64,000 nt of DNA from Acheta domesticus (Eukaryota; Arthropoda; Insecta; Orthoptera; Gryllidae), in assembly GCA_031308135.1 (NCBI GenBank), contig JAHLJT010009419.1:31400869-31464868 (forward strand). The letters are read 5' to 3'. Within the stretch, counting starts at the first letter, position 1. Each line of letters opens with the position of its first letter. A model generated the notes under the pieces. The model worked only from the letters and a program-made list of their open reading frames with translations, was not told the DNA's origin and ran no database searches. The position numbers and the translations under genes are program-made. Positions 23,471-50,860 of this stretch are shown here, piece by piece.

Positions 23471-23479
23471 AGTCCAAGT

Positions 23480-25040: not shown

Positions 25041-25049
25041 CCTTGGTCG

Positions 25050-25340
25050 CCCATTGTCTGTCACCGGAGCCGTCACCACGCTTTGACTCTCGCAATCCTC
25101 GTTCCAGTAGCAGCTCGCTCGTACGCACGCGTGCACCCGCGCGTGTGTGTGTTAATAAGAAAAACAATTTCGCGCGCTCGGAGCAAACAGCACTGCACCA
25201 CCCCGAGCGCGCACGGCGCGGGCGAGGGAGAGGAAGGAACAGGGAGGTGGAGCGTCAAGGAAGTCGTAAAGCTTCGCTACGCTCCAAGCAACGCAAGTGG
25301 CGCTTGTGGCGGGGAGCAAATGGAAATGTCAAATGCCGGA
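25050..25340. other. CpG-rich island 10
   Basis: GC-rich with CGCGTGTGTG and GGCGCGGGCG runs. No coding signature. TATAAATG at 25352 on its right edge is a weak TATA-like match. Confidence 0.4.
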
Positions 25341-25479
25341 GCCTTCTTCGTATAAATGTTTGTGTTATGCACCGGCTCCAGCAGCACGTGACTACTGCAA
25401 ACCGCGCAGATAAGAACGCAGAGTTGGCGAGGTCTTCACTAAGTATTTTAGCCGGTAGTGAATATCGTATGTGATACTA

Positions 25480-26422: not shown

Positions 26423-26463
<41 letters not shown>

Positions 26464-27260: not shown

Positions 27261-27266
27261 CTCTGA

Positions 27267-27645
27267 GGTCTGTTAGGAAAGTACCCTTTTTTAGTTTTTT
27301 GGGGGGCGGGGACGCGATGGATTCGCGTCAAGTGCGCTTGCGTGAGCCGACCTCAAACCTTCGTGGGCATGTGTGAACCTTTTCCTGTATGTCGATTGCG
27401 TCTGTTGCTGGCAGACAGCATTTGAGTGACGGTAGAGTGTAATGCACTCGTCGCTTTTTCATTGCTCGGCGGAGCAAGAGCAACTTCGTATTGAAGTTTC
27501 ACAGGACATCTTGGACTCCTGAAACAGTAACCCCGACTTCATGAATTCGGTTCTTGAAGTCAAGACGTCCTGTGGGACTTCTATTTTGGTCGCTACAGAG
27601 TTATGGGCTTCTTCTTGGCTACTAAATGATGTAAACGCTAAACTG
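27267..27645 (+). pseudogene. Decayed mariner-type transposon (5' end plus transposase scrap)
   Basis: GGTCTGTTAGGAAAGTACC at 27267 resembles a mariner terminal repeat, and the next 190 bp resemble the untranslated leader of mariner-family elements. From 27481 the plus strand reads QLRIEVSQDILDS, a stop, then NSNPDFMNSVL, which resembles the mariner transposase segment just before the catalytic TGDE motif (family pattern: cQDLL...(N)DPDFLNSVitGDE). The N-terminal half is deleted, the D residues are absent, and no right terminal repeat is seen before the (AT)n tract. It cannot encode an active enzyme. Confidence 0.55.
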
Positions 27646-27656
27646 GAAGTAAGCAT

Positions 27657-27663
<7 letters not shown>

Positions 27664-27698
<35 letters not shown>
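27664..27698. repeat. (AT)n microsatellite, left side of the foldback element
   Basis: Pure AT run that stops exactly at the TGAAACG end of the palindromic element. Confidence 0.9.

Positions 27699-27700
<2 letters not shown>

Positions 27701-29934: not shown

Positions 29935-29936
<2 letters not shown>
27699..29936. mobile_element. 2.24-kb foldback (palindromic) element with ~1.07-kb arms
   Basis: The left arm (27699-28787) and right arm (28876-29936) are inverted copies with roughly 90% identity by eye, separated by an 88-bp loop. Both ends read TGAAACGAATTGTTATCAC inward, followed by a sub-terminal dyad (GTTATCAC...GTGATAAC), and both abut (AT)n DNA, so the element probably inserted in an AT tract. 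Each arm contains a GC-rich block with an open frame of similar sequence (starting MRAGYGGGG or MRAGHGGGG) and an AATAAAAGG motif near its inner end. No transposase is present. Possible identities: a Foldback/Galileo-like element, or two inverted copies of one LTR-like unit. If transcribed through, the RNA would fold into a perfect-like hairpin of about 1 kb. Confidence 0.8.
28312..28542 (+). other. Open frame repeated in both foldback arms (not called as a gene)
   Basis: A 76-codon frame starting MRAGYGGGG in the left arm has a counterpart on the minus strand of the right arm (29357 down to 28935, MRAGHGGGG). The shared N-terminal 60 or so residues diverge later by frameshift. Repetition follows from the inverted duplication and the content is Arg/Gly/Pro-rich, so coding is doubtful, though a shared ancestral element protein is possible. 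Confidence 0.2.
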
Positions 29937-29974
<38 letters not shown>

Positions 29975-29998
29975 ACACATATATATATATATATGTAT

Positions 29999-30057
<59 letters not shown>
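29937..30057. repeat. Compound (AT)n/(AC)n/(GT)n microsatellite
   Basis: Alternating AT runs broken by GTATACAC and ending in (TG)n; right flank of the foldback element. The stretch is itself self-complementary. Confidence 0.9.
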
Positions 30058-30058
<1 letters not shown>

Positions 30059-30059
30059 C

Positions 30060-30745
30060 TATCATCAACTTCACGTTGGCCATATGCAAAAATATTGTGC
30101 TAAAATTGTTTGCATCGCGCAACATATTTGTAATTTAAACTAGGACACTTCTTGTTAAATATATGTTAATCCTGACTTCAACCATACATTTTATTTCACT
30201 TTTTTGATGGTTTTGCACGTATTGATTGTTTCTAAGTAGGCCAGAAAGTGGAATGTTACAGTACCAGATACCACAATGAATTCTTATATCCACTTAGGAA
30301 TCAAGGTTAATTTTCCAAATACTTAGATACTACCAACTCTGCTCTTTGCAACAATCGTATTTACACTAAACAATCATAGTTACACTATATGCAAATATAT
30401 AAAATAGTAGCATAAGATAATCATTTGCGACGATAACAAAATCCCTTTCATTAACTGCAATAATATTTTGAAGCTTTTATGGACAGAACTTAGGGAATCT
30501 AATAAGTATTCTAAAAATAATCAATAACTACCTTAACATTACTTATATTTTTATACACAAAACGCCATTTGTATTCATTCTAATAATTTTCCTCAGATAT
30601 GTTGGGATATTAATAGTTTCAATGCTTTATTAGATTTTTCCACTTTACTTAAAAAAACACGTTTTTTTCTTATCTTCCAAACTCTTCAGAACACTTTAAT
30701 CTACATTGCATATTTCCAATTCACACAGAAATTAAAAGAAAACTA
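30060..30745. other. AT-rich non-coding stretch
   Basis: Nothing recognised. Confidence 0.5.
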
Positions 30746-31012
30746 CGCCGCCTCCGACTATGTGAGAGGTGTCTAATGTTTTGTTAAGCAAAATGAAATT
30801 ACTTTTAGTATATGTGACTTACACTATTTTTTTAGACAGACTTACCGACTTTCATTTTATTTTAATTCAAGTAGGCAAACGGCTGATGCATAAAGATCAG
30901 TAGTAGCTGATACGGTCACGCGAAAGTACACTTTTTAGTTTTCTCTGTTGCATTCACAATTTTATCCGAACGGTTAAACATCGTCTCACTTTTCGCATTA
31001 GTGCTTAAAATT
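30745..31012 (+). repeat. Dispersed repeat family C, copy 1
   Basis: The 225 bp from 30788 align with 36274-36488: GCAAAATGAA, TTTAGACAGACTTAC, CATTTTATTTTAATTCA, AGATCAGTAGTAGCTGAT, CGAAAGTA and GCATTAGTGCT appear in the same order. The upstream 45 bp also match 5937-5990. The family is unidentified; no coding or tRNA promoter is visible. Confidence 0.65.
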
Positions 31013-31319
31013 GAACTCTTAGCATGAAAAATTGAACTCTCTATGTATGCCATGAAAGAAACGTTTTTACCACTAACGGTCTAAAAAATAAGTTATTCAA
31101 AATGTAATTATTTCTGTCTTCACTATCCAGCGCCAGGTTAGAACAAACAAACATGCAAGATCTGCAGGCATCAACATAATCCTTTACTGTGTTGGCCCAG
31201 ATGGGTACAACTGTTTATTCACAATTATTTTGAAGAATATTTTGTTTAAACACAGCTCGCTCAAGATAATACATTTTAATATTACGAACTTTCTTGTAAT
31301 ACAAAAAAAGTAAAGCGTG

Positions 31320-31560
31320 TAGCCCGAAATGGTGGGCGGGGCCATCCTGTTAGCGCGAGAGTCCGCTCGGCTCGACCACCTGCACTCCACGTGATGGCGA
31401 GCCCCTGCCCCTATTCTCCGCGCCCAATTAGCTTGCTCTCCACTCTCTCCGGCGCTCTGCGGACCCCAGGCCGCTTCCGGGCGCTGGCCCCGAGGAGCCA
31501 TCCACGGCACGTGCCAGCTGCGACGCCATCGCCCTGGCGCAGAGAGAGCTTTTTCTTTCT
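31320..31560. other. CpG-rich island 11, left flank of the satellite array
   Basis: GC-rich sequence containing a CTCCACGTGATGG E-box-like site, leading straight into the first unit of the 164-bp array. No coding signature. Confidence 0.4.
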
Positions 31561-32290
31561 GGAGGTCGCCATAATATGACGGTCAGCATAAGGTCACATC
31601 AGAATATTAAAAAAATAGCTTTCTCTTCTTACGAAATATTTGTAAGGCAACAATGTAAAAACAAATACGGCGCGTGGCAGCTGCGACGCCATCGCCCTGG
31701 CGCAGCGAGCCTTTTCTTTCCGGAGGTCGCCATAACATGACGGACAGTATAAGGTCACATCAGAATATTTAAAAAATAACATAACTTTCTCTTCTTACGA
31801 AGTATTTGTAAGGCGACAATGTAAAAACAAATACGGCACGTGGCAGCTGCGACGCCATCGCCCTGGCGCAGCGAGCCTTTTCTTTCTGGAGGTCGCCATA
31901 ATATGACGGTCAGCATAAGGTCGCATGAGAATATTAAAAAAAATAGCTTTCTCTTCTTACGAAGTATTCGTAAGGCGAGAAAGTAAAAATAAATACGATA
32001 CGTGGCAGCTGCGTCGCCATCGCCCTGGCGCAGCAAGCTTTTTCTTTCTGGAGGTCGCCATAACATGACGGTCAGCATAAGGTCGCATGAGAATATTTAA
32101 AAAAACATAACTTTCTCTTCTTATGAAGTATTTGTAAGGCGACAACATAAAAACAAATACGGCACGAGGCAGGTGAGACGGCATCGACTTGGCGCAGTGA
32201 GGCTTTTTTGGCCGGAGATCGAGTTAATATGATGGTCAGCAAATACAGTCGCATTCGCTTATTTAAAAAAATGTTAAATAAACACAATGG
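31495..32290. repeat. Satellite-like tandem array, five units of about 164 bp
   Basis: The block CAGCTGCGACGCCATCGCCC begins at 31515, 31678, 31844 and 32006, with a degenerate form at 32170, giving spacings of 163, 166, 162 and 164 bp. Each unit has a GC-rich part (often with a CACGTGGCAGCTG double E-box and the imperfect dyad CGCCATCGCCCTGGCG) and an AT-rich part with an imperfect dyad centred on CTTACGAAGTATTCGTAAG. The last unit is the most diverged, as at array edges. Related single copy near 35330-35395. Confidence 0.9.
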
Positions 32291-32324
32291 TTTTCCAAAA
32301 GGAACTCCTACGGATTTTGTGAGG

Positions 32325-32412
32325 TACTAGTACTTTAGTGTACTTTATTAATGCAAGTACTTTAGTGTACTGCATTTGGTTGCCCTGTGCGGCGTTTGGT
32401 TGCCCTGTGAAC
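32325..32412 (+). repeat. Short tandem duplications
   Basis: GTACTTTAGTGTACT occurs twice about 27 bp apart, followed by two copies of GTTTGGTTGCCCTGTG-like sequence about 20 bp apart. Slippage-type local duplications. Confidence 0.8.
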
Positions 32413-32419
32413 TTACTTG

Positions 32420-34560
32420 GAATGCCTGCTGCTAGTACTTGTAATTGGATGATGTGTTTTGGATGCGTGCTGTATATATCTACAATATCTAATTTTCCTA
32501 TTTAATTCTTTTATCTACACTAAACTAATTTTACCACTGCGTGGATGACTTATTAAGTCTCAACCTTGACAGATTTAACAATTTATCAACATTTTCACTG
32601 CTCAATATCGGCGTTTATATTTAAGCAGTAGTGACACCAGCATCCGGGATAATGTGGGAACTAAATTATGAGTAATAGAAATCTGCGTATTCCTATGTTT
32701 CTTGGAGCGTTTTAAGGGATCCTACAACTAGTATTTACTACCTACAATTTAATGTTCTATCGTCCAGGTATTTTTTCATTTATTTTTTAGTGAAATTCTC
32801 AAATTCATTTTTACCATTTATATAGCTACATATCTCCATGTAAACAGTTTTAACATAAGTAAATTACTTCCATTTACATCATACTTACTTCGAATATTAT
32901 CATTTTGGCAGAATCTTTTTTTAACTAAGTTTTTCTAACGCTTAAACATAACTTATTTTTTTATCGCACCAATTCTGATTCTCTTTCTCTCCAAACAGTA
33001 ATAACAACTCCAGTTGTCAAGGAGACAAAGTCTTGTGTATAGTTATATTTCCAGAATTTTATAGGATAACTGAAAATTATATTGTGCCAATTAATACTGT
33101 GAAGGTGTGATACAGTTTGAAAGTTTGGTATTTTCTTGCAACAATGCTTTTTGGAATACTTTGTTAATTGATAAATATTCATGTTGATTCACTTTAATCT
33201 AGCCATATCTCCACAAAAATTCTGATAAAAGCTACGAGATACATAAAACTTATTTCCAAAATAAATATTATCTAGTGGTTTGTATTTGAAGAAATTCATT
33301 AAACTTATCTGTAACAAACATGTGCTAAAAGTGCTTATAAGTTCATTTCAATAAAATGAAATACTTTGAAATGATTTGAATAATTTTTATAGTACGTATG
33401 CTATTTGTCAAAAAAACTAAATCTTATAATTTGTTGTATGTAATCCTATATCTGTAAAACGTATTCTTTTTTTTCGCCTCGGGGAATTTTTGCCCGTAGC
33501 CAGCAAAACGTATTTCGGGAAAAGAAAACTTATTTCGGCCATACAATTGTTCACAACATACATTGTTGGAACAGTACAGTGCAGCTGTTTATTGCAGCTG
33601 CTTATTGTTGCGTAGACGTTTTTGTGTAATTGAGAAGTTTTAAAACGTTTAATATCAGTTTACAAGCCCATATAATATAACAACTAAGGTGAATGTACAC
33701 ACATTTTTCCAACCATGTTTCAACTATTTAGTGATTTTATTAATGAATTATGAATAACATCACACACATTACATTAAAACTGACCAATTTTCCCAAAAAT
33801 AATATTCTTGTATAATGTTTTCTGTTGATAATTCGAAATTAAATATATTAACACTTTTTGTATTTAAAATGTGTTACCAAAACAAGATCGGTATTTCTAG
33901 GGTTAACATTGAGAAAATATTGCTTACATTTTTCAAGTGCATCGTTCATTTGGATAATATGTACTTTTCAAACAATAACTGATAAATTACTTTTTTATGA
34001 ATTATGACTGTTTTGATAATGTTTTAAACGTTAACCAACTCAACAAACATTTTACTCCGAGTGGCTTCACGTTCGGTTTTTGTATGGATGTCACAAAAAT
34101 TATTCTGTAGTAAGGCAGAGATTCATAGGTCCAAGAAACACATTTCTTAATGTTTAAAAGACACGTAGGAAAGTAACAACTTTATTATTTACTTTTTCAC
34201 TTTACCTTTAATATTTGGCTATATTAGCGCTATTACTTACATTAGTTGCACTTCAGTCTACCTGCCGTCTTGTATCCCACTTCGGATTAGTTGAACTAAC
34301 AGACATACTATTTTTTTTTTTTTGGTTTTGCGAGAAAAAGTAAATAGCGTTTGTCATCGTTGCAGTCGTTGTCAAAACGCCGCTGTTTTTCTTTCTTCCT
34401 CGAATGAAGCCATCATGCGTATTAAGCGCCGAGGCGGCGTACATTCCATGCATTGTGGAGCCCAACTAAACTGCCTCAATTGTCAAGTTTGTAGATTTTT
34501 GGAGTGTTAGGGAAGAAACGGACAGACTGGATGTGACATGGAGGGGTTCAGTGTGGGGTG
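32420..34560. other. AT-rich non-coding stretch
   Basis: AT-rich with no recognised gene, RNA or repeat; a poly-T run lies at 34311-34324. Confidence 0.5.
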
Positions 34561-34599
34561 GGGATCAGCGCGGCGCAGCAAACTCAACTAATGGTACTA

Positions 34600-35410
34600 C
34601 AACAAAACTTACTTTTTCGCATAATTTATAAATTTGATATTTTCGAAAATAAGACCCAAGTTCAATGAAAATGGAATCCGCATCATTCTTTTATTATTCC
34701 TTATTCTATTCATGAAAAAAGTTAAAGAAAATAATTGGAGCGTTTTTGAGAAAAATTGTTTATTTTTTCCATTGTCCACATTTCGCGCCAAATTACACGA
34801 AAATTACTTCGAAAAAATGAACATATGTTAAAGAACATAATTCATTAACGAAAAGATCTCTATCTTGAATGTTATAATTGTAGAAAGACGCCCCAAAAAG
34901 TCCTCTTTCGCGATTTTAAAAAAAAGGGATTTCAATGAACATGAGATCTATGCCATTCTCTTAGTCGTCCTAAACGCTATCTAAAGACAAACTTTGATCA
35001 AAAAATTTGGTGTCATTTTTTAGAAAAAGAAAATGTTTCTGAGGCTCCATGTAACGTACCCATAAAAATCAAAATATTTGTTTGAATCTCCCAAAAAGTT
35101 CATTCAGATTGATTGGGGAATATCAATCTTGAAGAAAATCGGCTGAACGGTGTAGGCGCGAGCATTGACTTCAGAAGGACAGACAGACATTTTGCCGTCA
35201 ATCATAAAATATGGATTCAGGGTACACCACGGGTTTTTGTTTCTATATTTAACAATAGGATTTATCCACTTTTCTTGATCAGGTCTCGACAATGAGAAAT
35301 TTTCTGCCGAAAATTCGCCGTTTACCGGCGCACATAACTTTTTCTTCTTACAAAGTTCCTTCGTAAGAGCGAGAAAGTAACAAGCGGCAGCGGTGTCTAC
35401 AGAACGAGCG
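34600..35410 (+). repeat. Likely transposon-derived remnant
   Basis: GAAAATCGGCTGAACGGTGT followed shortly by GGACAGACAGACATTTTG resembles a motif I know from repeat remnants in many insect genomes. Inside, 34665-34700 and 34930-34970 look like diverged copies (TTCAATGAA...GCATCATTCT against TTCAATGAA...GCCATTCTC). At 35330-35395 the sequence matches the AT-rich dyad part of the 164-bp satellite. The family is not identified and the ends are uncertain. Confidence 0.35.
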
Positions 35411-36273
35411 CGCAGCGGTGCGAACAGTTCCGAAAATGTGCTGTCGAAACCACCCGGGTTATTTCCGTGTGGGAATTTGTATTTCAAACGAAAAACATTG
35501 AGAGTAAGCGAAATGAATTTAAGAAAGGCGTGTGTTCAAGAAGACCCAGGCAAGGGGAATGTATGAGCAATAACACAGGTCGTCAAACCGCCGATCGCAA
35601 GATAGTAGTTGCTGGTGGGGATATTCTTTGTAGACCGGAGTGTCACGCTCAAGTGGTTTAGCCTGGAATTGCTCCATTGAGCTCAGAAAGATGAATCACA
35701 AAAATAGCTGCTTGTATACTCTCGCACAACTTATTTTGTGTCTCTCAGCTAATTGGTTGAGCTTGAGGCTATTTATTTGTACGTTTTGCATGTGTTCATT
35801 TGACATTTGCTAATATGGGTAGTTTGATGAACGTTCTTACTTTTGGCTTGGTTTTATTTGCTAGCTTACAGTAAGACTGTAGGTTTGCTCAGAAACGTCT
35901 TAAGTTTGGAGACCACTAAGCTATAGTAAAATAAATTTCAGCCTACTTTATGAATCAATTTCCCGCGATGTTTTCCATCTATTGTTAATAACACTTCTAA
36001 TATGATATTTTTTCTTTGACCGGCAAAGTGTTGATCTAAAATATATGTATTTATTATCCCGATCCATTGTGTTAGTCAGGGGCTGCTGGGTGACTATGGC
36101 TGCTCACGGGTTTTCGTGCGAAAAAACAAATCTGTTTGAAATTCGACGCACCGCGTCACTTGCTAAGTGCAAATGCTGTTATTTATTATACAAGTGGTAA
36201 AAGCGACATTTTATTTTGCGAGTAGAGAAGCTTGCAACACGAGGCCAGCAGACCGACTGGCGCAATTCTACGA

Positions 36274-36488
36274 GCAAAATAAAACATCTTTTTGTATATG
36301 TTTCATTATACTATTTTTAGACAGCCTTACAATTTTTCCATTTTATTTTAATTCAGGTATACAAATGACACATTGAGATCAGTAATAGCTGATGAACTCA
36401 CACGAAAGTATTTTGTTTTCTTTGTGACATTCACAGTTTTATCTGAACACTTTATCATCATCTCGTTCAGCATTAGTGCTAAAAATAC
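36274..36488 (+). repeat. Dispersed repeat family C, copy 2
   Basis: Aligns over about 215 bp with 30788-31012 (see blocks listed there). It runs directly into the LINE-like fragment, which copy 1 lacks, so the two were probably joined by chance or by insertion. Confidence 0.65.
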
Positions 36489-36690
36489 CAATCATCAGCT
36501 TCATAAAGAACTCAGCCTAGAACCCATTGAACATCACATCACATACCTAGCCACTGACTTCTACCATTTTTTACCCCAAATCCCTTCCCTTGCAACCTTC
36601 AGACTCACAATAAATCCTAACCACACCAAAAAAAACAACAAACAAACAGATATCCCTACAACATATTCTTGAAAACCTTCTCCGAATTCG
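36478..36690 (+). pseudogene. LINE ORF2 C-terminal remnant (Jockey-like)
   Basis: The plus frame reads NHQLHKELSLEPI then EHHITYLATDFYHFLPQ. This resembles the tail of the reverse-transcriptase ORF of Jockey-type non-LTR elements, which commonly ends in a pattern like LHxDL.(L/I)..I...I..LA..FY..L. Only about 60 residues remain; the polymerase domain is absent and the frame stops at 36672. An A-rich stretch follows at 36625-36645. A weakly similar A-rich piece near 61728-61795 may be another relic. Confidence 0.45.
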
Positions 36691-36699
36691 AACCAGAAT

Positions 36700-38170
36700 A
36701 GAGGACCGAAAAGGGCATCCTCACCCTTATGTTAGATTTAAGAGTTAGAAGTAAGTTTTGAATATAAGTTATCATATAGGCCTTCAAACATATGTAAAAG
36801 TAGAAATTATACTGAACTATGTACAACCAACATAAATCAATAAAAAACAAAAGTGCTAAAAATCAAACTTGCAGCACGGCACGCACGCCCTGGACGAACA
36901 GCTTTTACTAGTGGCTACCTAAGAATACTGTTTTGTTCTTCCCGTGACGCATGGCACCGCGCCCGGACTGTGTCTACCGCTATTCCACCTGGCGTGGATC
37001 TGCGGTGGAGAGTGAACACGGACGGACTTCTGGTGGCGCCGTAAGAGCGCACGTGAACCTCTTCGGCGCGGAATAGGAGGGGCGCTGGCCCGACCCTTTA
37101 CCCGAAATGGAATTCTCGTGTCCGATGGCACTCTCTAGCAGAGAAGGAAGGAGTAGCTCTTTGGTGCAACTGGGCGTGATTTCTGCTTCCTTACGCTGAA
37201 GGTGGTTTTAGCAGAGTAAAGGTACAAAGAGTGTGATTTTCATTATTATTGTTATTGTCTAGTTCTAAGTACATTTGTAAAATTCTAATATCTATATCTT
37301 TACATTCTCTTCTACATCAATTGCATTCAAAATCATTACAATTTATTTGCCATTGTTATTTGTGATTGCCACTGACAAATAAACGTATTAAAACGTATTT
37401 TGCAACACCTCAAAATTATAGCACGTAGTCACATTAACTCTCCGAACACTTAAATACTTATGCGGTAAAGGGGGAAATACCAGTTTTAATTGTAATAAAG
37501 TGGGTAATATTAGTTTTCTCGAAAACTGCGCAAAATGTTTGTGTCTAAACATATCAACTAATTCAGCATTCACATCTATTATCCAGTCTTTTCTCTTCCG
37601 AACACATTTTTAAGGAAGCTCTACCCACTATTATAGTATTTGTGGTACAACTTTCCTAATGCCTGAAAATGTGGTTAGCGAAACAAACACCGAAACCAAA
37701 AAGAATATATGTATCAGCAGCGGAAAACACGAAACGGGAATGACTTAATTTAATTCCGGCTTTTCGCAACTATGCGATTAATAGATTACATTGGAAACAT
37801 TTATACTGGATGTCATTATTGAATGTAAATCTTCTAATAACCCGCGTTGTGATTGGGTACGATTTTTTCATTAATGAGTGGAAAACTGTGGAGGGTTTTC
37901 AAATCAATATAGACTAAAGTGAATTTTACAACTAATCTAAATGAACTATTTTTAAAACGATGTAGAAAAATAATTTAACTCTCGTAAGTGGGGCCAATGA
38001 CAATTTTTGTACATTGCTAACCACAATTTGTATTACTCATATGAACGATGCTATCACACTGGTGCAATATAAGGATAAAGAAGAGATAACCCAGAAAGAC
38101 GGAAGTTTCTCAGACCCTAATCGCAACATCCTGTTCAACTCTAACAGCTCTCGAAAACTTCCAAATGCAA
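36700..38170. other. Mixed non-coding stretch
   Basis: Mostly AT-rich, with a moderately GC-rich patch at 36870-37140. No recognised gene or repeat. Confidence 0.45.
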
Positions 38171-38179
38171 CATCCTGAA

Positions 38180-38480
38180 CCGTCCCCTCGGCGCGCATGT
38201 CGTTCTACGAGACGTTAGTCCCGTAGCTTCTCGCACTGCTTCCCATCAGCCCAATCTGAGGGAGGAGGGTTGCCCACACCTACTTAAAGTAATGAATATG
38301 CTCGCGCGAAGTGTCTCAACGTGGCGTGGCGTGGTGGGGTGTGGGTGTCTCCAGACGCAGTGGAGGACTTGCCAAGCCGCTCACGAACACCGCCCGGACG
38401 AGGGAAGGGGCGGCGAGCGAACTGGTCTTCCAGATGTTACGATCTCGGCAGCCGCGCGACGGATAGGCCTCGACTTTCTT
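38180..38480. other. Moderately GC-rich block
   Basis: GC-rich with GTGGCGTGGCGTGG-type repetition near 38320. Three overlapping short open frames, none recognisable. Confidence 0.35.
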
Positions 38481-38539
38481 TCCACTACAGGGTGTCACCT
38501 ATGATCGGGGTTTTGTAGTACGGAGGAGATCTATTTTTT

Positions 38540-39140
38540 GCGTATTGTCTTAGTCGTCGTGTAAAATACGTTACCAGAGAAGAAAAAGATATGAGGGGTT
38601 ATTGAATTGGGAGAACGTACAGAGATTAATACAAAAGGTCTTATTATCAAACATCTTATTAGATGTTTACTTTGGTTGTGAATAATTAATTAATTATTGG
38701 ACACAACATAATATAATAAAAGATAAGTATATTAAATATTTTTGTAACTTCTGGTTTCCTCCTTTTAATGGCGCCACCGATATGTCTACACGCTACCGAA
38801 GAACAATCTCTGTAACACAAGTGCGACTAAAATAGAGCTCAGTTAGGCTTGTTCGTTCAGTGAATTGCGGTTAACTGCCATGATAAGTACTGACAAACTG
38901 ATTCCATGTCAACGAAAACTTTTTAAAATACAAAACAGCTAAATCGTGGGCAATATAGTTCTCAGATGCTTACTGCTAAGATATCGCAAAGGATTTGTAC
39001 GAAATTTTGTACCAATTTTATAGTGCATGTGGACTAGTCAGTCGCTCAGGATGAATGTCAGGGTGCAACATTAAACATACCAGCATGTTGGCGATACAAG
39101 GTCATTAGGTGATGTACGAGTCGTGAAAAGTTTCACATCT
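38540..39140. other. AT-rich non-coding stretch
   Basis: Nothing recognised. Confidence 0.5.
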
Positions 39141-39149
39141 TTTCTAAAA

Positions 39150-39580
39150 AGGCAGAATTGCTTTTGAGGTTCACCGCGCGAGGGGATGATTCCCCTATTT
39201 GTCGCCAGAGGCCAGGTAGCGTCGGCGTAGCCGTCACAAGGAAGCAGCGGCTTATTGCAGAAGACACTTCCCTTCCCCGTCTGGGAGCGGCTAGGACAGT
39301 GTTGTCAAGGTCCATGCAATGGGCGGAATTCCGTGGCACGAGTGCCACGACGAAATCGCCCCTTCACGCAGTTCGTCACCCCACCACCAGAGACAACGCC
39401 ATCCCTATTGTAAAACGGTGGGGTTACTAATAGTTTCCTTTCCCGACGCTAGTTGCGCGGAATAGCTCGTGGCATGCTAAGGAGTCACGACGCGTGCCAC
39501 TGCCGCTAGTAGAAGACCTTGACACCACTGGTCTAGGCGAAGGAGTCCAGCGCCGGACGGGAGCTATGAATGGCGTGGCA
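39150..39580. other. GC-moderate block left of the MITE hairpin
   Basis: About 430 bp of raised GC with overlapping frames on both strands (90 codons plus, 71 minus) that resemble no known protein. Contains local dyads such as GTGGCACGAGTGCCAC near 39333. Confidence 0.35.
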
Positions 39581-39591
39581 TACTTCGATCT

Positions 39592-39753
39592 TTTTTAACG
39601 TGGCATCTCAAGGTCACGCACGAAAAAGGGAGAGGGAAGGCAGACTCCAATAGAGTGCCGTTAAAGTGAGAGCTGTAGTGACGTTGCAGCACCCTATTGG
39701 AGTCTCTTTCCCCTCCATTTTTCGTGCGGGTCCTTAAGACGCCAAGTTAAAAA
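39592..39753. mobile_element. MITE-like hairpin, about 162 bp
   Basis: The left arm 39592-39660 and right arm about 39688-39753 are inverted copies (TTTTTAACGTGGCATCT... against the complement of ...AGACGCCAAGTTAAAAA), about 80% matched, around a loop of under 30 bp. Both arms include a CACGCACGAAAAA/TTTTTCGTGCGGG pair and an ACTCCAATAG core. No coding. The structure fits a short palindromic MITE; an RNA copy would form a long hairpin. Confidence 0.75.
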
Positions 39754-40124
39754 CTCGAAGTATAGGCAGCACGCCTGGTCACTTGATAAGCTTTGAGCTA
39801 CATTGGAAGTCCAGATTACTCTAACAGTTTGGAACGTAGTAGTAGATAGTTTATACGAACAGAATTGTATTGAGTAGAACGACCTGGCTATGAACACATA
39901 TTTCTATGGAATTGTGAATAAATGTCAATGTTGTTGAGCGCTGCATTTCATTCCGTTATAGTTTGATACACAACTGTTTTAGAAGAAACGTTTGTTACAA
40001 TTGAAATTAAATTGTTTAAGTATATTCGCAATCCTATTCGACATACAGACATTTTTATACAGTGTACCTTCTAAGTCATAGCATTTCATACCTCAGTCAG
40101 AGTACCCTAACAAACGGGCCGCGG

Positions 40125-40445
40125 GCCGCGGACCGCGCGTGATCTTTTCTGTCCCTTCCTTGTCCTATCCTCACCTCTTACACACACTAACATATACTAC
40201 ACTACCACAAATGCCGGGAGACCGGTCGGGAGCTTAGAGCTTGTCCCGACTGGGGCGGTGCCCCGCGGTGGAAGATATCTAGTTGGTGTAAACCCCGCTA
40301 GCCGTCGGAAGGTCGGCGCCGGATCTCACCATTTAGCGGGAGAAGACCACCATCACCTCCCGAGAAAAATGCACTACACTTACGGGAATAATGAACTTAG
40401 AGTTGACGTGTCCGGAATCAGTAACAATCAATCAATATTCCTAAC
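40125..40445 (+). repeat. SINE family A, copy 5 (3' half only)
   Basis: Begins at CCTTGTCCTATCCTCACC and continues through GGAGCTTAGAGCTTGTCCC, GCTAGCCGTCGGAAGGTCGG, CACCATTTAGCGGGAGAAG and an AATCAATCAAT tail. It lacks the tRNA head, i.e. it is a 5'-truncated copy, as expected from incomplete reverse transcription. Confidence 0.85.
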
Positions 40446-40459
40446 AATATAGGTGTGTT

Positions 40460-42000
40460 GGAAATTCGACACCGTTGAAACTCAATCTTTCGGAGCACCC
40501 AGTCATCAATGGTAGGAAGGCAATGGCAGCGCTGCCCCTAAGCCACTCCAGCCGATGTGAGGTTCGAAACTGGGTAACAAATCAAATTCAACGCAATAAC
40601 TGGACGAAAATAGCTTAAAAGTTTGTAGAAAACCGAGCAGAAGTTCGGGAACATCCTGTACATGGCGGCGGGCATTGCCGGCCTCCCCTTCTGAGTAGCC
40701 CTCCTCCCTTCTTTCGGCTTCACCGCCGCGACGCGGGTGCACCGCTTCCGCGTGAAGCTGGCTAATTTTTCAGGCACAATCTTCTTCCAACTTTGCGCGC
40801 TTTACGAGTGCTATTAAACTCGAACTTTATTAACAAGTAAAACTTATCTCTTTTTAAATTCTCCTCTTTGAAGACGGCGGCGCCTGGAGGTTCGCTCCGA
40901 GTCCTGTCAAGGCTTCAAGGCTGCTCGTGCCGGCGCTTCTTGCATCAGCTGCAGAAGAACTCCGACGGCAGTGCAAGGGGCACGGTGAACGTAGGGGAAG
41001 ATGCATTACGAAAATCGTATCGCGTAAAATAGGAGATAAAACGGAAGGGTTATCACATAAATTTTACTTTAGAGAGAACGTGGAGAAACACATCGTCTTA
41101 ACATACGTATTTGGCCCCATTATAATGAAACATAAAATGATGAAACACGGTGTTCTTTTTGAGACGTAACTAAGATAATCAATGAGTGGATTGTTCCAAA
41201 AATTCGTCTACCAACCTATGCAAAATATATATTATTTAGTCAGGGGCAATTTTTAAAATTAAGACCATATTAACGCGTGTAAATGAATTCGTTACTTCGA
41301 TTCACTTCTGAACGTTTAAATAACTACTATTTTTTCTACTTTCAAACTTAATGTCACATTATTTAGTATTACGCCTAAATTTAAAATAGTTCCAATCTGA
41401 TAAACTCAAACACAGAAATACGATTTAATAACCTACAGTCTTAAGGATAATAAATCAACTATCCCTTCGTAATATTATTAATGGAAAATGAGGAAAAATG
41501 AATATAAAGATTTAAGGGAAAAATAGTTTGGACAATAAAAATAAATGTTACTCTTGCAAAATTATTTTTAAATTAAACATAATAACTGCATACTCAATAG
41601 CTTAACTTATTCACAGCCTTTATTTTTAAACGACGAGGTTTGGATTTCATTCAATCTAACATAAAATAAAATGTATCCCTTCCATTTTTTTGAAATTATG
41701 CACCTGAACTCAACAATTTATCTACAATCCGAATGTAAATAAATGTTGGAAATTCATTATTCGTGTACTTTCCAATGAAGAAGTTAGCTCTAATAAATCG
41801 TACTAATTCAGAAGGAATAAAAAAGCACTTTTATTATTTCCTCGTGTCTTAGAAACATTGAATTCTGCAAATCAAAAGCCTCTCTGCTCCTAAGGCGTAT
41901 TTCTTCACAACTCTGACATCTCTCTCGAGCAGTGCAATGAAACCCTTAAACATGAACACGTTTAATACCGACCCGTCAAACAGAGCAGCCTTACACCTGT
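40460..42000. other. Mixed non-coding stretch
   Basis: A GC-moderate patch at 40500-41000 is followed by 1 kb of AT-rich DNA. Short open frames only; nothing recognised. Confidence 0.45.
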
Positions 42001-42139
42001 CTGCTTGGGGCGACAGGCCGATTGAAGACCACCATCATCACCTCTCCGGTCCCGCCCCACCCCTCCCTTCCCTTCCATATAACCACTTCTCATTACTACC
42101 GAACCGAGCCAAGTTTCAAAGTCGAACCGAGCAGAAAAG

Positions 42140-42259
42140 GCGTGCTTTTATTGGTTTTCGCCAGAGAACGCCTTGGACGGGGTGGCCGGGGTGGCAACGG
42201 CGCCGACGAGCCAAATGCCGGAAGCTTCTTGACGAATCACAAGTAGGATGTCGGCTGCA

Positions 42260-42290
<31 letters not shown>

Positions 42291-42490
42291 CGGTGGCGCG
42301 AGACGACGCGTCCCGGGCGTCTGTAATTTCACTTCCTTTGTTCGTCGTCCTCGGCAGAAGCTTCATTAAGGCTCGCGGCGGCGGCGGCGCAGCTCTTAGT
42401 GGGGTGACGCGGCTCCTTCCGCGAGGCCATAGCGATGGGATGCGGCGGCCGTAAGGTAATGAGGTCGGAGGAGGTGGGAGGACGGGGGAC
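42140..42490. other. CpG-rich island 12 with a (CGG)n run
   Basis: GC-rich, with about ten CGG units at 42259-42289 and a shorter GGCGGCGGC at 42375. Both strands give Ala- or Arg-runs in open frames of 68-129 codons, so coding is not supported. Confidence 0.5.
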
Positions 42491-42769
42491 GAGCGTGGGC
42501 AGGAGGTAAGAGGACAGAGATGCGGTGCAGAACGAATGATGGATTATTTCGGTTTCCGGACGCGTCCATTGCTATGGTAATTGGTCCCGTAAGAGTAGTA
42601 CATGTTTTATCATGGGAAGTGACGATGTTTCCCTCCCCCTACTAGACGACGAGGCACCGACTTTTTCGTTTGGGTTTTGTTGGTTCTGTTGGTTTGTTAG
42701 GATTTTGTCCATCCAATTATCCTCCATGGACCCGACGAGACAAGCTCCCAGCTGGCATCCCAACATGTG

Positions 42770-43045
42770 GGGAAGTGTAACGTGTGAAAGTGTCAGAGTG
42801 TAAGTGAGGGATGAGGATAGGGTAGAGAAGAGTAAGAACGATGGCACACGGTTCGTGGCCGGCCCGTTTGTTAGAGTACTGCTCCGGTATTCGCCTGGTG
42901 TTGATCGCAGAAACCCAGAAAAACGAGCAATCAGATCCGAGCAGCTGGCCACTAGAATTCTTCTCCAGAGAGTGGCTTAACTTGACCTAGCTTTGGAGCT
43001 GGTGTCGAACCCAAAGACCTTCCGTTTCGACACTACAGTAACATG
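42770..43045 (-). repeat. SINE family A, copy 6 (head and 5' half)
   Basis: On the minus strand a B box GGGTTCGACACC (near 43003-43014) is followed by the family body (CTCTCTGGAGAAGAATTC, GGTGTTGATCGCAG on the opposite strand, CCCTATCCTCATCCC). The 3' half is absent. Confidence 0.7.
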
Positions 43046-43049
43046 GCAG

Positions 43050-44180
43050 TACAGTGTACATGAAAGTGCTGAAGGAGTGGCACATCGCACGAAAGACTCA
43101 GAGAATTCTTGCTAAGTAATTAGAAAATAATGCAAAAAAAAGAACTTGCGCAATAAATGAAGCACATCGACCAATAGCAATTAAATAAATTCTATGAAAA
43201 TTGAAAACAAACTGATAATACGATTCGAAAGTGAGGTGAAAACTGTAGCGGAACCTCCTTTTCATCTCCTTTGTAATCAGCATGCATACATGGAACGGAA
43301 AGCACGAGTATGACGATAGTACCAATAGCAAAACGGTAGACAACATAGTTTCAACTGTAAAGTATCTAAAATCCAAACAAAAAGAATGGAAAGTAATTTC
43401 AATACGGCTATTTGGCAAATAGAATTTAAAAAATAGAAACGGAACCGAAACATGAGAAACTTAAATAACATCTAGTTGAAACAGAAGTAATTAAATCACA
43501 AACCTTTCATGAAAAAATGAGCAGCTTGAATTGAAGCAACAGTTACGCTTTCAAAAACTGGGATAACACATCACTTTGGTTATGGTTAAGTCGGGTGTAT
43601 AATTAACTACAAAATGTGTTAATGTATGTTTTCCTCAAATGGAGACGAATATACATGCAATAATTTAAGCAATACATCCAAAGTCTGTTGATTAGAAGCA
43701 AGAATGAGCAAAATGGGCACTTTTAAAAAATATTCTGTCCGTTTATCACCAACATCTACAATATCTTCAGTATTGAAAGTGTTGACAAGCAGTGTTTTGT
43801 AAAATAAAATGAATTAAAGAGAGCAAATATTCCAGTTAAAAGAGAAAAACGAAATGTACCTAATGTAAAATTTTGGCGTTTCTGTAATTACCCAATCCAC
43901 ACTGAATAGAACGTCAATTGACAAGAGGTGTGTTCGCGGACTGTAAGTGCGCGGTTCGCTACAGGCTTCTTTGGACAGCCAATATCTATTAAGCTCAACT
44001 AATGAGCTCTGCTCTCCCGATAGTCTAAAGCACACATCTTTGCGATCACATTAAACGATGCGGAACACCCAAGTAACAAGAACAGCTAAGATTGAAGGGG
44101 GATGAGAATAGTAACAGGAATGAAAATGACCAGCAATAACCACAATGCCGCTGATCTGATGACGCCGACAGAATGAGGGC
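43050..44180. other. AT-rich non-coding stretch
   Basis: Nothing recognised. Confidence 0.5.
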
Positions 44181-44279
44181 GTCAAAGTACGTTACACCGG
44201 CGAGGAATGGGAACCCTTGAGGACTGCGACTGCAGCAAAACGCGACATTAGCAACTGCCACTTCACCCAGCTTTTTGTA

Positions 44280-44830
44280 CTCACGAGCTCATTTTCGCCT
44301 CCAGAACCGCAATTGGCAGTTCGAAATCCCCCTCCCCCCCGGCCGCCACGACATTTTCTGTCATCCTTCAGTCCACTGCGCCTCCCCCTCCACACCCAAG
44401 CTCTTCTTGCTCCACCTCCACTCTGTGCCACCCCGATCCTACCTGCCCCTACCCCGCGCGGTCCCCCCTCCATCTCTCTCCGCCCCCCCCCTCCCTGTCA
44501 CTCCTCCGGAAGCGACTCTCATTCCCGTCCCTGTCCTAGAGCACGGGGTTTCCGCGAACGCCTACTGTGGAGGCAGATAGCTCGGCGGTGGCCCGAAACG
44601 TAATTACGACACGACGCCTTTGCCCGGACCACCGCCCCCACCCGCGTCATAGACCCCGCCGCCCCCGCTCTTGCTCCTTTCCCTTCCGACCGCCTCTCAC
44701 GGCAGAGCCGACGGCGCTCCCGGCGAAAGAACTTCGCCGCGGAGTTGTTCTTGGGGGAGGAGGTAGGCTACGCGAGAGAACAGGAGCCCCGGGCTATCGG
44801 GGCCAAAGAGAACGGGGAAGTGCAACCTGA
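44280..44830. other. CpG-rich island 13, C-rich on the plus strand
   Basis: C-rich with CCTCCCC runs to 44510 and mixed CpG-rich DNA after. Three overlapping open frames, all Pro/Ser/Arg-rich. No recognisable exon. Confidence 0.45.
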
Positions 44831-44939
44831 TCACCGCAGTGTGTTACAGGAACCTCTATTGGTTTCGAGATTGGATGGTTATCAAATGCGAGAGCTTATC
44901 TCTATTTTTGCGAGAAGAACAATTTGACGCACGTTGAGA

Positions 44940-46550
44940 ATGTTTTTTTACGTTTTACGACAAAGTGGATTCACGTGTTGAGTAGATGAAGCAGTTCTTG
45001 TAGATTTGAGTACTTCATCCGATATTTATGATGTACGATATTATCGTAATCATGGGATTTTATTTCATAAGGTTTCTTATTTTGTATTATTAGTATCTCG
45101 ATTTCATAGTATAGAATTGCTAAGAAAGAAAATTGCTTCCCTTACAATTTAAAATATTTTAAACGTGATTTCATGCAACTTTTACAAACTTACATTCGTC
45201 AACCTAAATAAAGGTAAAGAACTATTTGATGTTTGTACTTCATTGAATTATTTACTTTGTGTAACTTATTTTATGCTTTCGAATGTAAAAATATATCATT
45301 TGTGTACTGGGATCTCATTTTTTTCTATTTTTCAAACACCCCATCTTGAGTTTTTTCTTCATTGCAAACGTGGTTTTGTATAATTATGTTTTTAATTTCG
45401 TATCACGAATGCTCAAAAGTTGTTGGGGAGGGCGGTCTCCAACACTACAAAAGACTTCCTCTCACAATGTGAATCTATGTTAATCACTGTCTTGATAAAA
45501 AGATAAACAATTTCTTAACACTTCTGTAACTGTTATTTGTTCATACTTACACCCCATTCCTGATTCCTTAAAGATCATATATCCCATTCCTGATATGTAA
45601 ATGCAGTCTGAGACTAATAAACAGCTCCCTTCATGTTTAGTTAAACTAAACACATTTTCTTTTAAAGCTCTGAATTTGGCTTTCACCAACGTCTAACACT
45701 GTTCTGAGATTCCTTGAAATTAAATTTACACTAACGTCCTTACATCATCCACTTTATATTTACGTACTTATTTGTGAGATATACTAATATTCTGTTTCTA
45801 CTACCAAATGTACTTAATTTTTTTTTAAATTTCTGAATGCTGTTATAACTTTCAGTTTGTGCGATTACATTGGTATTTTTTGTTACCTTGCTAACTTTGA
45901 AATCTCTTTCTCAATACAAAACAGTGACTAAATTTTAAATTTTCTTTCTATACTCAAGAAAGGTATTGAATATAAACAAAAAACTTTCATGTATAACTCT
46001 TTTCTAAGAAACAATAGTTCAGTTAAAATATGAAAATGTAAATTGTAACTAAACACTAAAGTCAAATAAGCGTACAAAAATAAATAACATGACGTAATTA
46101 TAACAATGTCATCTTTATTCTCTAAGTATATGAAATTCATGAAATGTGACGAAGCAAAACCGCGACTCAGAAACAAACGCACAAAATAGCTGTCAAAAAA
46201 AAATTCCCATTACGAAGCACTTTACGTTATGAATTTCTACGAAAATGAGACCACCCATGTGACAACGGGGCGTATAAAGCACCAGAAGCGTCTCTCGCAA
46301 TATATATGAGACATATCATAAAGGCCAACGGCGGAATTTGAATTTGTAATGACTTCGGCGTAATAAAACGAGGAACGAAATAACGTCTACATCCTTGCGT
46401 GTACACGCCTCTTCCAAATTTATAGTGCCCTTCCTTCCACCAAGGCGGACGCGAGTAAGCGCGTGAGATACGCAATTTCACGCTACGTCTGGGCCGCGTT
46501 CTAGTTCGGATAAGAACGCCTCCTTCTATTTTACAGCGTTATTCCTATTC
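44940..46550. other. AT-rich non-coding stretch
   Basis: Nothing recognised. Confidence 0.5.
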
Positions 46551-46559
46551 AGCACTAGC

Positions 46560-46870
46560 TATCAGGAAGGGAAAGGAAGGAGGTCGGGAGGCGGGGAAGC
46601 GTAAATACATAGATAAACGAGCGAACGAGCGAAGGCCGGGTCGCCCGCCGCGAGAACACGCCGAAGAAGAAAAAGGAACGAACCGCCGCCGCCACCGCCT
46701 GAGAAAATACGGCGACCTAAAGAACTTTCCCGAGCCGAGAAGGCAGCGGTGGCGGCGGTCGGAGGGGGAACGCGAGGGGTTGGGGGGGGATGCGTAGGGT
46801 ACGAGACTGGGAGGTTTAGTTGAGGGAAACGCCGCAAAGGAGGCCAGGTCGTGGCGGAGAATGTGACGTA
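46560..46870. other. GC-rich island 14
   Basis: Purine-rich on the plus strand with GCCGCCGCCACCGCC and GGTGGCGGCGG runs facing one another (46685-46760), which can pair as a loose hairpin. No coding signature. Confidence 0.4.
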
Positions 46871-46899
46871 CTTGTAAAGGGGGTGCAAGATGATGGAAC

Positions 46900-48170
46900 G
46901 ATATTGTAAAGGCAGATTAACGGAAGGTAAAGAACGCTTGCCATATTGCTATAAGTTGTTTCTTTGGAAGTCAAATATTGAATATTAGAATATATTCCAA
47001 CCATCAAATTCTACAAACGACCATTTCGGCGAATTCTGTTGATACCGAAAGAAAAGGAAGGAGTAAAAAGTCATGTCGTTTCTTGGACGATTTCAGCAAT
47101 CGAGTTTCATTCATAAAATGTTATGACATTTTAAAATAGTAATTGCAAACATTCCGCCCTTTTGAAACAATTGTTTTAATAGTAAAAATATCTTCATGGT
47201 AAATCCCAACTTTGAATGTTTCTGGAAGTTCGTGTTACGGAGTGAGGATACATTCCATAACTGTAATAGAACATTCAAGAAGATCTTATTTTATAGGGTA
47301 TGACAAAAATACCAGGCATCTTGCAAAGGTCATTAAAACAAAGTTTTAAGATACTAGCATGAATATTGTTTTAATTATGCACATGTGTTGCAGCGTAACG
47401 TGTACTGTGGGTTCCAGTGAGCTCCTTCTCCCTTAATGTTAAAAAGTACAAAATTCTAAATGATTTGTCTTAAATCTGTTTGGTGCATTTCAGGGGGGAT
47501 AACTATTTATACAGCAGTAACAATGGACCTAAGTGGGTTTTGTATCCATTGATTCGTATATTATGTTTCAAAAGTGTCATATTTTATTTATTGTATCACA
47601 TAAGTGTGTCTCGGAATAAATGTCTAGAGCATGTGGACGAATGTTTTTTCGCAGAACATATGGTGATAAACCTGAAACGAAGATATACGTCTGATATTTC
47701 CTGGTAATCAATATATCCTGATAGGTACACGAAATCTCTTTGACAGTGTCAGTTCAGAATGGATTCCTGCTCATCAGGATCAAATATCACGTCTTCAACT
47801 ACCTTATACGAGATTTCTCACTTCAATGATTAGGAACATTTTTATTTTCGACATACATGTCATGAAAGTTTGTTACGTTTATTCTGAGTGATTCTGTAAA
47901 GAAGAGATGAGATCCATTTCACAAATAACATTACGAAATATCTTTTCGTATCCTACGTTGGTCATTTAAACCTTGAAAGAAAGAGTAACAATGTGTACTG
48001 TTGTTGGGATAATCAAAATTCAGAATACTCTCAAAGATACAGAGTCCGGTCCGTACTTGTTTTCAATCAGATGTAACGATGCCGTTTACGAATCAGATCA
48101 ATTTAATAGAACTGTTAAGTTATCTATTCTGACGCAAAAGGTTTGTGCCAATTATTAGCACATAATTCAT
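46900..48170. other. AT-rich non-coding stretch
   Basis: Nothing recognised. Confidence 0.5.
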
Positions 48171-48189
48171 TATATTCCACAAATGTCCC

Positions 48190-48830
48190 ACGCAGATTGA
48201 ATGATGGGATTCCGAGGGATCGGTTGGGGAGGTGAAGGACGCACGCAAGCGAGTAAATATTGAAGAACGGAGGCATCCGATGATTCAGCGCTGCAGCCCG
48301 CGTGACATGACGGGCGGATGGGCCGGAGTGCCGGCGTTGGCAGGAACACGGCAGCTTCCTGACGCGCAGGAAGCAACGCACTGCCGCCGGCGGGGATGCG
48401 GGGCGGAGCAGGACAGCGCGGGGCGGGGCGGGGACGAGGGCAGCGGAAGTTCAATGCGATGTCACCTGAATTAGGCATCCGCGGGCGAAGTGACGCCTTG
48501 ACAGGCGCAGCAACGGAACCGTTTTAGCGGCGGAGCTGAGCGGGACGCGCAGCGAGGCGGGGCGGGGATGGGACGGGCGGGGCGAGGTACGGTGGGAAGC
48601 TGAGCGCGGGAAGAGGGCGGGGGGCGTGGCGGGGTGGCGAACGCGTGACAGCGACGCCGCGTAGCCCAGCGGCGGCGGCGGCAGCAGCGCGCTCCGCGGC
48701 CGCCGCAAAAAGCTCGCGAGCTCACAGCGCCACGCCCACCCGCGCTGCCACTCAGCGCCTCAATTAAAGATGCGCGCGACACCGCGCCGCGCCGGTCCAC
48801 GTGCTCCCTTTGGGCGCCGTCACTCACGGG
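48190..48830. other. CpG-rich island 15
   Basis: About 640 bp of dense CpG, including GGGGCGGGGCGGGG runs (48420-48435, 48555-48585) that resemble GC boxes. Open frames on the minus strand reach 118 codons but are Arg/Pro/Ser/Ala-rich with no family resemblance. One of the longest CpG-dense blocks, so a reasonable place to look for an alternative promoter. Confidence 0.5.
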
Positions 48831-49440
48831 CTAAGCGACTTTGACAGTCAGAAATGATATCTCTGCACGGGATGCGATATTCTCTTCGTGCATAAATAAA
48901 ACTCAGGTTTTTTAAAAATAAGGTTTTTTTTTCTTTTTTTGCTTTCCGAGGCGTATTGTCCCGCGGAAAGACAATGAAGGAGAGCAAAAATGAAACAAAG
49001 GGAGCTTGCAGGGGAAGCTTTACGTTAATTTCGCGCCACATTCACAATTCACAAGATAATGAGGATTCTCGTTTATTGTTTTAATTGGAAACAACAAACT
49101 TTCTGTAGAGTGATAATATTCAATAAGTTCATACGAGAATTAATAAATTATATAATTTAATAATATTAAAGGTGATGTACATTAGTTGTAGTGTTTGTAG
49201 AAAATGATTTGACTGAATAAAAATAACTGTGATCGATGAGTTTTAACAGAGTTAGAAAAATAGGAAAATACTGTCATATTATTATGAAGTTTTTAAGTAA
49301 ATTTGCCCAAATTAGTAATGTCATCAATATTTTGTTCTCAACTGTTTTCTGATGTGAGAATTTGGAACGAACTCACTTAGCAAAACTCATTTACTTACAA
49401 ACAGAACATTTTTATGAAGGTTCGTTCGTACAACAAATAG

Positions 49441-49540
49441 TTTGGTTTGCCTCAATTACGGTGACAGTTACAGGTACAGTTAGTGACGGAACAGTGACAG
49501 TTATGGTCACAGTCTTATTGGTTTACCTCAATTACGGTGA
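49441..49540 (+). repeat. Short direct repeat (24 bp, spacing 76)
   Basis: TTGGTTTGCCTCAATTACGG at 49442 and TTGGTTTACCTCAATTACGG at 49518, separated by GACAGT-rich sequence. A small local duplication. Confidence 0.85.
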
Positions 49541-49559
49541 ACGTTCCTTTTAAATGTAA

Positions 49560-50760
49560 TCCATCTACTTAAAAATATTTTACTGCAGAATATCACTTTG
49601 TTCAATAATAAAATGTTGTCACTCTCTTGAGCTGAATCTACTCCACACAAGACTCATTTTTTTGTTTCGAATAATGTCAGCGTTCCAAAATTGAAAACAT
49701 CGTCACAAAAATTTCTGAATATATCTATTTATTTATTTACCCAAATGAATTTGATGCAAATTAATAAATACAACATTAATTCAAATAATTTCTGAAATAC
49801 ATTATGCATATAATATAAATTTCCTAAAGCAATAGGTCTTTATTTAATTGACGATAAGTAATTAGTATTGAGAAACGATGTTCCTTTAAGAGAGTTGAAA
49901 ATCAACTGGAATCGCGGCGGTCTCTGCCAGCTTTGCCTTGGAGTGTGCCCTGCTCCCCTCATTTTATTGCTCCCTGGAATGAACTCTAATTACTTTGTTT
50001 CTTACCAAAACGAGCGAAAAAAAGAGCGCCTCGCATTCCAAGAAAGCGCGTTCAATTTGCCTACCCTTTTTTTATTTGCCATTTCTCTGCAGGGAAGAAC
50101 CTGCAAGTAATAGCATTTTAGAATAATTGTCTCGTGATTTTCTCTCAAGGGAATAAAAAATAGCTAGCAAAGCTGAGATTTGAAAGTGTTGAATAGGGAA
50201 CGTCGCCTCTTTTGAATGTGACTGCAAATTTCTTTAGGAACACTTTTCATTCAAAGGCTGAAGACGAAGAGGACAATGGTAGAAGTCACTTGTTTAAGCG
50301 CCCAATGCCGGAATGTCAGGCGAAACAAATAACGGTGATTTTAAGTTCGCTGGTGTGGAAAGGACTGGGATGACGTGAAGGGAACTTGCGAGAGGGAAAA
50401 AGGGACATCGAGTGATATACTAGTTTGAGAAAGAAAAAGTAGTTGACACAGTTGGATAAAAAAAATGGCCAACTTGATGGTAACAAAAGGCTACAAGAAA
50501 TAGAACACTATTTATCAACCGATTGGGAGAACATGTTGATTTTTTGTGAGTTCAAGAAACTGAAAAACTTTTTTGAATGTCTCCGTTAGTATTGACTTTT
50601 GTGATTAATGTTCATTGATCAAATCACAAATGCAAAGATTTTGAAAACGATGTTATCCAAAAAGCTTTATTGGGCATATTTTAAAAATAATAATTAAATC
50701 TGTCGGTTAATTTCTGAAATTTAGTTGTATAAATTAAAAAAAAGATTTTGGGAAATAACA
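49560..50760. other. AT-rich non-coding stretch
   Basis: Nothing recognised apart from short open frames. Confidence 0.5.
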
Positions 50761-50767
50761 AATTTGT

Positions 50768-50860
50768 ACTTACGAAGGTTACTGCTACATCAGTTCGTAT
50801 TTCTCGCTTTACTCACCTGAAAAATAAAATATTCGGTATGTAATGATTGAATTCGTCAAT
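50768..50860 (-). promoter_or_regulatory. Candidate recursive-splice (ratchet) site 2 with RS-exon
   Basis: Read on the minus strand: TATTTTATTTTTCAG ends at 50817 and is followed without a gap by the donor GTGAGTAAAG from 50816. A second donor, GTAAGT (50773 down to 50768), lies 43 bp later. This matches site 1 in strand, motif order and donor sequence (GTGAGTAA in both). The possible branch point is less clear here (a TTGAC-like motif upstream). The 43-bp RS-exon contains an in-frame TGA when read from the junction. Confidence 0.6.

Follow-up and report, generated by a model that had tools for sequence, protein, structure and literature searches.

Paired splice signals at two minus-strand sites

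The window analysed here, a stretch of 64,000 nucleotides, carries on its minus strand two sites at which a T-rich splice acceptor directly abuts a strong donor, with a second, weaker donor following about 50 nt further on. By direct reading of the window, site 2 has the minus-strand sequence TATTTTATTTTTCAG|GTGAGTAAAG with its donor at 50816 or, in a longer reading, ...CCGAATATTTTATTTTTCAG|GTGAGTAAAGCG...TAACCTTC|GTAAGTAC. Site 1 lies 40 kb from it, with its donor at 10767, and reads TTGTACGTTTTTTGTTGCAG|GTGAGTAATG on the same strand. The parts of both sites, together with the segment that they would delimit, are given below.

50817..50836, minus strand: acceptor of site 2, a T-rich tract ending in CAG (CCGAATATTTTATTTTTCAG), read from the sequence
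50809..50816, minus strand: junction (putative ratchet-point) donor of site 2, GTGAGTAA; its first base has plus-strand coordinate 50816
50774..50816, minus strand: candidate cryptic RS-exon of site 2, 43 nt, each of its three frames interrupted by a stop
50768..50773, minus strand: RS-exon donor of site 2, GTAAGT in the context TTC|GTAAGT, 43 nt past the junction donor
10768..10787, minus strand: acceptor of site 1, TTGTACGTTTTTTGTTGCAG, read from the sequence
10760..10767, minus strand: junction (putative ratchet-point) donor of site 1, GTGAGTAA
10713..10767, minus strand: candidate cryptic RS-exon of site 1, 55 nt, each of its three frames interrupted by a stop
10707..10712, minus strand: RS-exon donor of site 1, GTAAGT in the context TGT|GTAAGT, 55 nt past the junction donor
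10768..50816, minus strand: presumed recursive segment, about 40 kb long, that separates the two putative ratchet points

The letters and coordinates that the initial annotation had assigned to site 2, including the minus strand and the GTAAGT 43 nt downstream, proved correct. Its further statement that site 2 repeats the layout of site 1 holds for the order of the elements and for the strand; the spacing is similar (55 versus 43 nt) and not identical.

Both junction donors have the form CAG|GTGAGT, and only 3 of the 6888 GT dinucleotides on the two strands, both sites included, were as good or better. With a matrix of general frequencies the junction donors scored 12.85 bits, compared with 4.37 bits for the RS-exon donor of site 2 and 5.66 bits for that of site 1. 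The acceptors by themselves were good, not exceptional: 35 of the window's 6858 AG acceptors equalled or beat the score of the acceptor of site 2, and 37 that of site 1. What is rare at these sites is thus the near-perfect donor abutting an acceptor, and not the strength of the acceptor. A branch-point match, CTAAT, lies just upstream of the acceptor of site 1 (A at -21), while those at site 2 are weak, the best being TTGAC (A at -40) and ATTAC (A at -25). Neither of the cryptic exons has a length divisible by three, and neither was among the 25 best of 117 conventional acceptor-donor pairs in the window.

Frequency of the junction motif in real and randomised sequence

Similar to the approach taken in PMC6110457, a weight matrix for the joined acceptor and donor was scored at every position of both strands (~128,000 positions). 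The main matrix consisted of general, insect-like frequencies, and the sites were already known when the matrices were selected. With the main matrix the two sites ranked first and second over both strands, with joint scores of 0.913 and 0.903; the next best position scored 0.848, and no third junction of comparable joint score was present in the window on either strand. Sites scoring at least 0.903 were expected at 0.015 per window in 200 dinucleotide shuffles, at 0.016 in 3000 block permutations and at 0.015 in 730 windows generated by a fifth-order Markov model. None of these null windows (0 of 200, 0 of 3000 and 0 of 730, respectively; main matrix) contained two such sites.

The outcome depended on the cut-off. 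At the laxer value of 0.85, which is named for fly sites in PMC6110457 with a matrix that differs from the one used here, 1.07 and 1.04 sites were expected per null window and 2 were observed. Since the two sites are unremarkable at this level, the case rests on the height of their two scores. The initial annotation had argued that chance is less likely for the pair than for one site alone, and had named an equal rate of such sites in shuffled DNA as evidence against it. At the sites' own score no such rate was seen, but at 0.85, with about one site expected, an equal rate is nearly reached.

Three other matrices again placed the two sites first and second or tied for first. Expected numbers rose to 0.074, 0.16 and 0.22 per window with these matrices, so that across all four the chance expectation of a site as good is 0.015-0.22 per window; two equally good sites occurred in 0, 3 and 13 of 500 permutations, the last figure belonging to a 'weak donor' matrix. 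All these values somewhat overstate the surprise, because the matrices were chosen post hoc and because both window and motif had been picked by a motif-seeking reader, which amounts to uncounted multiple testing.

The AG|GTRAGT core by itself was at chance level, with 3 found and 2.4 expected. The pattern YYYNCAGGTRAGT matched site 2 only (1 match versus 0.08 expected; 8 of 100 shuffles had one), and site 1 does not fit it. The minimal motif Y5+N0-4YAGGT, as given in PMC10156609, had 16 matches in the window, of which only the two sites have a GTRAG donor. On the minus strand, 3.3% of positions are followed by a GTRAGT at a distance of 25-80 nt, as both real sites are; among null sites scoring at least 0.903, one with a downstream GTRAGT was found in 3000 permuted windows and one in 730 Markov windows.

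An AG|GTRAG scan of the window listed 9 sites. Those at 11699 (+), 15293 (+) and 40174 (-) were set aside as lying inside copies of a dispersed repeat, and those at 32173, 42506 (+), 59384, 1030 (-) as having only 2-4 pyrimidines of 14. A 17-letter junction pattern had matches in 49 viral contigs, which we took for chance matches.

Genes, repeats and composition of the surrounding sequence

A Pfam search at E 0.01 detected no domain on the minus strand, covered in all frames over the whole window, or in the plus-strand frames scanned, which comprised all frames at 1-15 and 49-64 kb, two of three at 34-49 kb, one of three at 15-30 kb and none at 30-34 kb. Inspection of the lists of open reading frames by eye revealed no recognisable gene. 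In a control on a read-through frame of E. coli DNA the same search found 7 families, which covered both plus-strand genes of that frame; among fragments, it recovered 4 of the 8 that were 40 residues long and the single one of 25 residues (1 of 1), the latter below Pfam's own cut-off. Given that whole genes were seen and 4 of 8 of the 40-residue pieces, short exons could be missed, and many short or poorly conserved exons would escape these searches. A PDB scan of the minus-strand frames from 19001 to 64000 returned only three weak matches (E 0.0026-0.0032) at about 23.26-23.47 kb, which sit over a G/R/A-rich array (the GC-rich array at 23052-23441). The window contained no Rfam family at gathering score and no tRNA.

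To assess a repeat origin of the sites, the 1001-nt stretches centred on them were compared with the rest of the window, where neither had a match at E 0.01. A permissive search of the two stretches against each other gave 13 short matches, namely the 21-nt core (18 of 21 identical), one of 32 nt at E 0.010 and eleven others with E values of 0.12 or higher. With only short mutual matches and no wider match in the window, the possibility that the two sites are copies of one repeat or mobile element was rejected.

The window does contain a dispersed repeat in six copies (11479-11742, minus; 15275-15431, minus; 20954-21396, plus; 40125-40438, plus; 42758-43009, minus; 54561-54791, plus), which are 65-73% pairwise alike and have the core consensus TGTCCTATCCTC. 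Related fragments lie near 11.8, 15.7, 21.6 and 54.8-55.1 kb, and a search of viral contigs for exact copies of a 33-letter consensus of the repeat was negative. In a large foldback at 27661-29974, two arms of about 1.1 kb that are 87% complementary flank a centre of about 90 nt; the foldback includes a 174-aa open reading frame, for which no homolog was detected at E 0.001. Imperfect palindromes were observed at 57323-57542 (about 220 nt, 82%) and 39580-39763 (about 185 nt, 76% self-complementary). A tandem array at 31504-32207 has a 162-bp unit in about 4.3 copies with 88% matches, and the similarity reaches 32272. GC-rich simple arrays at 4645-4742, 9004-9420, 23052-23441 and 60143-60352, built of CGG, an 11-bp CCGAGACGCGG, CGCCC-like and GGCGGGGGC units, give rise to long low-complexity open reading frames.

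At 43% G+C, the window has a CpG observed/expected ratio of 1.14, a value that fits an insect, for example a hymenopteran, better than a vertebrate. On this ground a vertebrate origin of the window is argued against.

GTRAGT is in excess in the window, with 67 occurrences versus 46 expected from dinucleotides and 0 of 100 shuffles reaching 67. After repeat masking, 38 were on the minus and 19 on the plus strand, a bias that ranks third of 966 comparable degenerate hexamers. We do not count this minus-strand excess as evidence for a sense transcript, because in Table 3 of PMC2773006 large insect introns have no sense-strand donor excess. Neither the excess nor the lean to the minus strand is predicted by the insect-intron counts published in that table.

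Proposed recursive splicing and its alternatives

In Drosophila, ratchet points are described as an acceptor and a donor in tandem, with an RS-exon that is cryptic and about 50 nt long; the junction donor is generally the stronger of the two donors, and the content of the RS-exon is poorly conserved and generally out-of-frame (PMC8605326). The sites found here have an AG|GT-joined acceptor and donor above background, though as a pair not outstanding at 0.85, a downstream donor bounding a short RS-exon of about 50 nt (43 and 55 nt), and a junction donor stronger than the RS-exon donor (12.85 versus 5.66 and 4.37 bits). From these features we consider it probable (roughly 0.7) that both sites serve as intronic ratchet points in the recursive splicing of a gene on the minus strand whose intron would be very long. 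The ratchet-type reading of the initial annotation is thereby supported, by the abutting acceptor and donor, the RS-exon donor about 50 nt on and the shared strand. It gains further evidence from the ranking of the donors, from cryptic exons that are out of frame and contain stops, and from the finding that the sites are not repeat copies. The other part of that reading, one giant minus-strand intron spanning both sites, is only compatible with the data.

According to the mechanism that we propose, the cryptic exon of 43 nt (site 2) or 55 nt (site 1), bounded by the T-rich acceptor and GTAAGT, would be recognised first by splicing factors. Joining of the upstream exon to the acceptor would then put exonic sequence immediately in front of GTGAGTAA, by which a donor would be rebuilt. 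Being the stronger one, the rebuilt donor would beat the GTAAGT of the RS-exon and serve the next splicing step, by which the cryptic exon would be removed, and the mRNA would keep no trace of it. If transcription proceeds, as we infer, towards lower coordinates, use of site 2 would precede that of site 1, and the second step would remove the segment of about 40 kb from site 2 to site 1.

Among the alternatives, the sites may represent two real exons on the minus strand, ordinary alternative ones of one or two genes and probably non-coding or poison exons, that happen to start with GTGAGT and carry a rival donor from their first base on. At each site the acceptor and the downstream GTAAGT do form a formal exon of 43 or 55 nt. 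Moreover, expressed RS-exons are described for Drosophila, e.g. the Ubx microexons, and inclusion does not always follow donor strength (PMC8605326). However, the stops in three frames and the lengths not divisible by three speak against coding exons, and the junction donors far outscore those of the exons, so that skipping is favoured. This explanation, which we regard as unlikely, also overlaps with the preferred one, as expressed RS-exons would still be a form of recursive splicing. Chance matches, i.e. two junctions that arose without selection in 64 kb of insect-like DNA and are unused, would account for a core motif at chance level, for about one site per null window at 0.85 and for acceptors that are not exceptional, and the general excess of GTRAGT (67 versus 46 expected) makes a downstream donor likelier by chance. 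Set against this are the 0.015-0.22 sites expected per window at the sites' own score, the lack of any null window with two of them under the main matrix, and the occurrence of both on the same strand with the same internal layout, and we hold a chance origin, too, to be rather improbable.

A further alternative accepts both sites as genuine ratchet points and assigns them to different introns or to different minus-strand genes. The 40-kb gap is large compared with the mean fly segment of 9.1 kb, and the exon search, which missed 4 of 8 conserved 40-residue controls, is blind to non-conserved exons. On the other side, no minus-strand frame contains a Pfam domain at E 0.01, and the PDB matches (minus strand, 19001-64000) are limited to the three weak ones over the G/R/A-rich array. 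We consider such a separation of the two sites very improbable.

Ratchet points thus remain the preferred reading, and as such the sites resemble those described in Drosophila (Ubx, kuz, Bx and others; PMC8605326, PMC6110457) in the T-rich acceptor abutting a GTRAGT donor with no exon between them, in the weaker second donor about 50 nt on, in the out-of-frame cryptic exon, and in the long stretch without recognisable exons. They differ in that the 40-kb spacing would be a long step relative to the mean segment of 9.1 kb reported in PMC6110457, and in that their acceptors are less outstanding than the very strong ones of fly recursive sites in the same source. A further difference is that use of the sites described here is predicted from sequence. 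The kind of site is already known, and these two would be further examples of it. For vertebrates, Sibley et al. in 2015 reportedly described RS-exons in long genes, with exon definition first and re-splicing from a rebuilt donor thereafter. This is the scheme proposed here, in a different type of genome, given that a CpG observed/expected ratio of 1.14 is unlike that of a vertebrate.

If the sites are real, they would show, from the letters of the genome alone, on which strand an unannotated giant intron lies and roughly how far it extends. They would then also add another genome to Drosophila and mammals, in which the exon-defined model of recursive splicing was worked out. More tentatively, and with somewhat less than even confidence, we suggest that recursive splicing in its full exon-defined form operates in an insect-like genome outside the drosophilids, in a giant intron and in steps of about 40 kb. 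With the same reservation, this full form would combine a strong rebuilt donor with a weak RS-exon donor, and its steps would be several times the mean fly segment. A search of one collection of open-access papers on recursive splicing in Hymenoptera, Apis mellifera and Tribolium gave motif counts (PMC2773006) and, in the text covered, which included PMC8553928, no experimental demonstration in those insects.

According to PMC2773006, such motifs (RP-sites) are enriched where introns are large in bee, beetle, mosquito, fruit fly and sea urchin. The same joint donor-acceptor motif is concerned, and in our window it is found on one strand only; the published counts refer to annotated introns, whereas the intron proposed here is inferred, and the RS-exon donor is an additional feature of the present sites. 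Table 2 of that paper gives, per 100 kb of large introns and of the complementary strand, respectively, 0.48 versus 0.12 RP-sites for bee, 0.81 versus 0.10 for beetle and 2.2 versus 0.10 for fruit fly. Assuming that both minus-strand sites pass the cut-off used there, a Poisson estimate made by hand from these rates favours a large minus-strand intron over background roughly 12-fold with the bee values and 120-fold with those of the fly.
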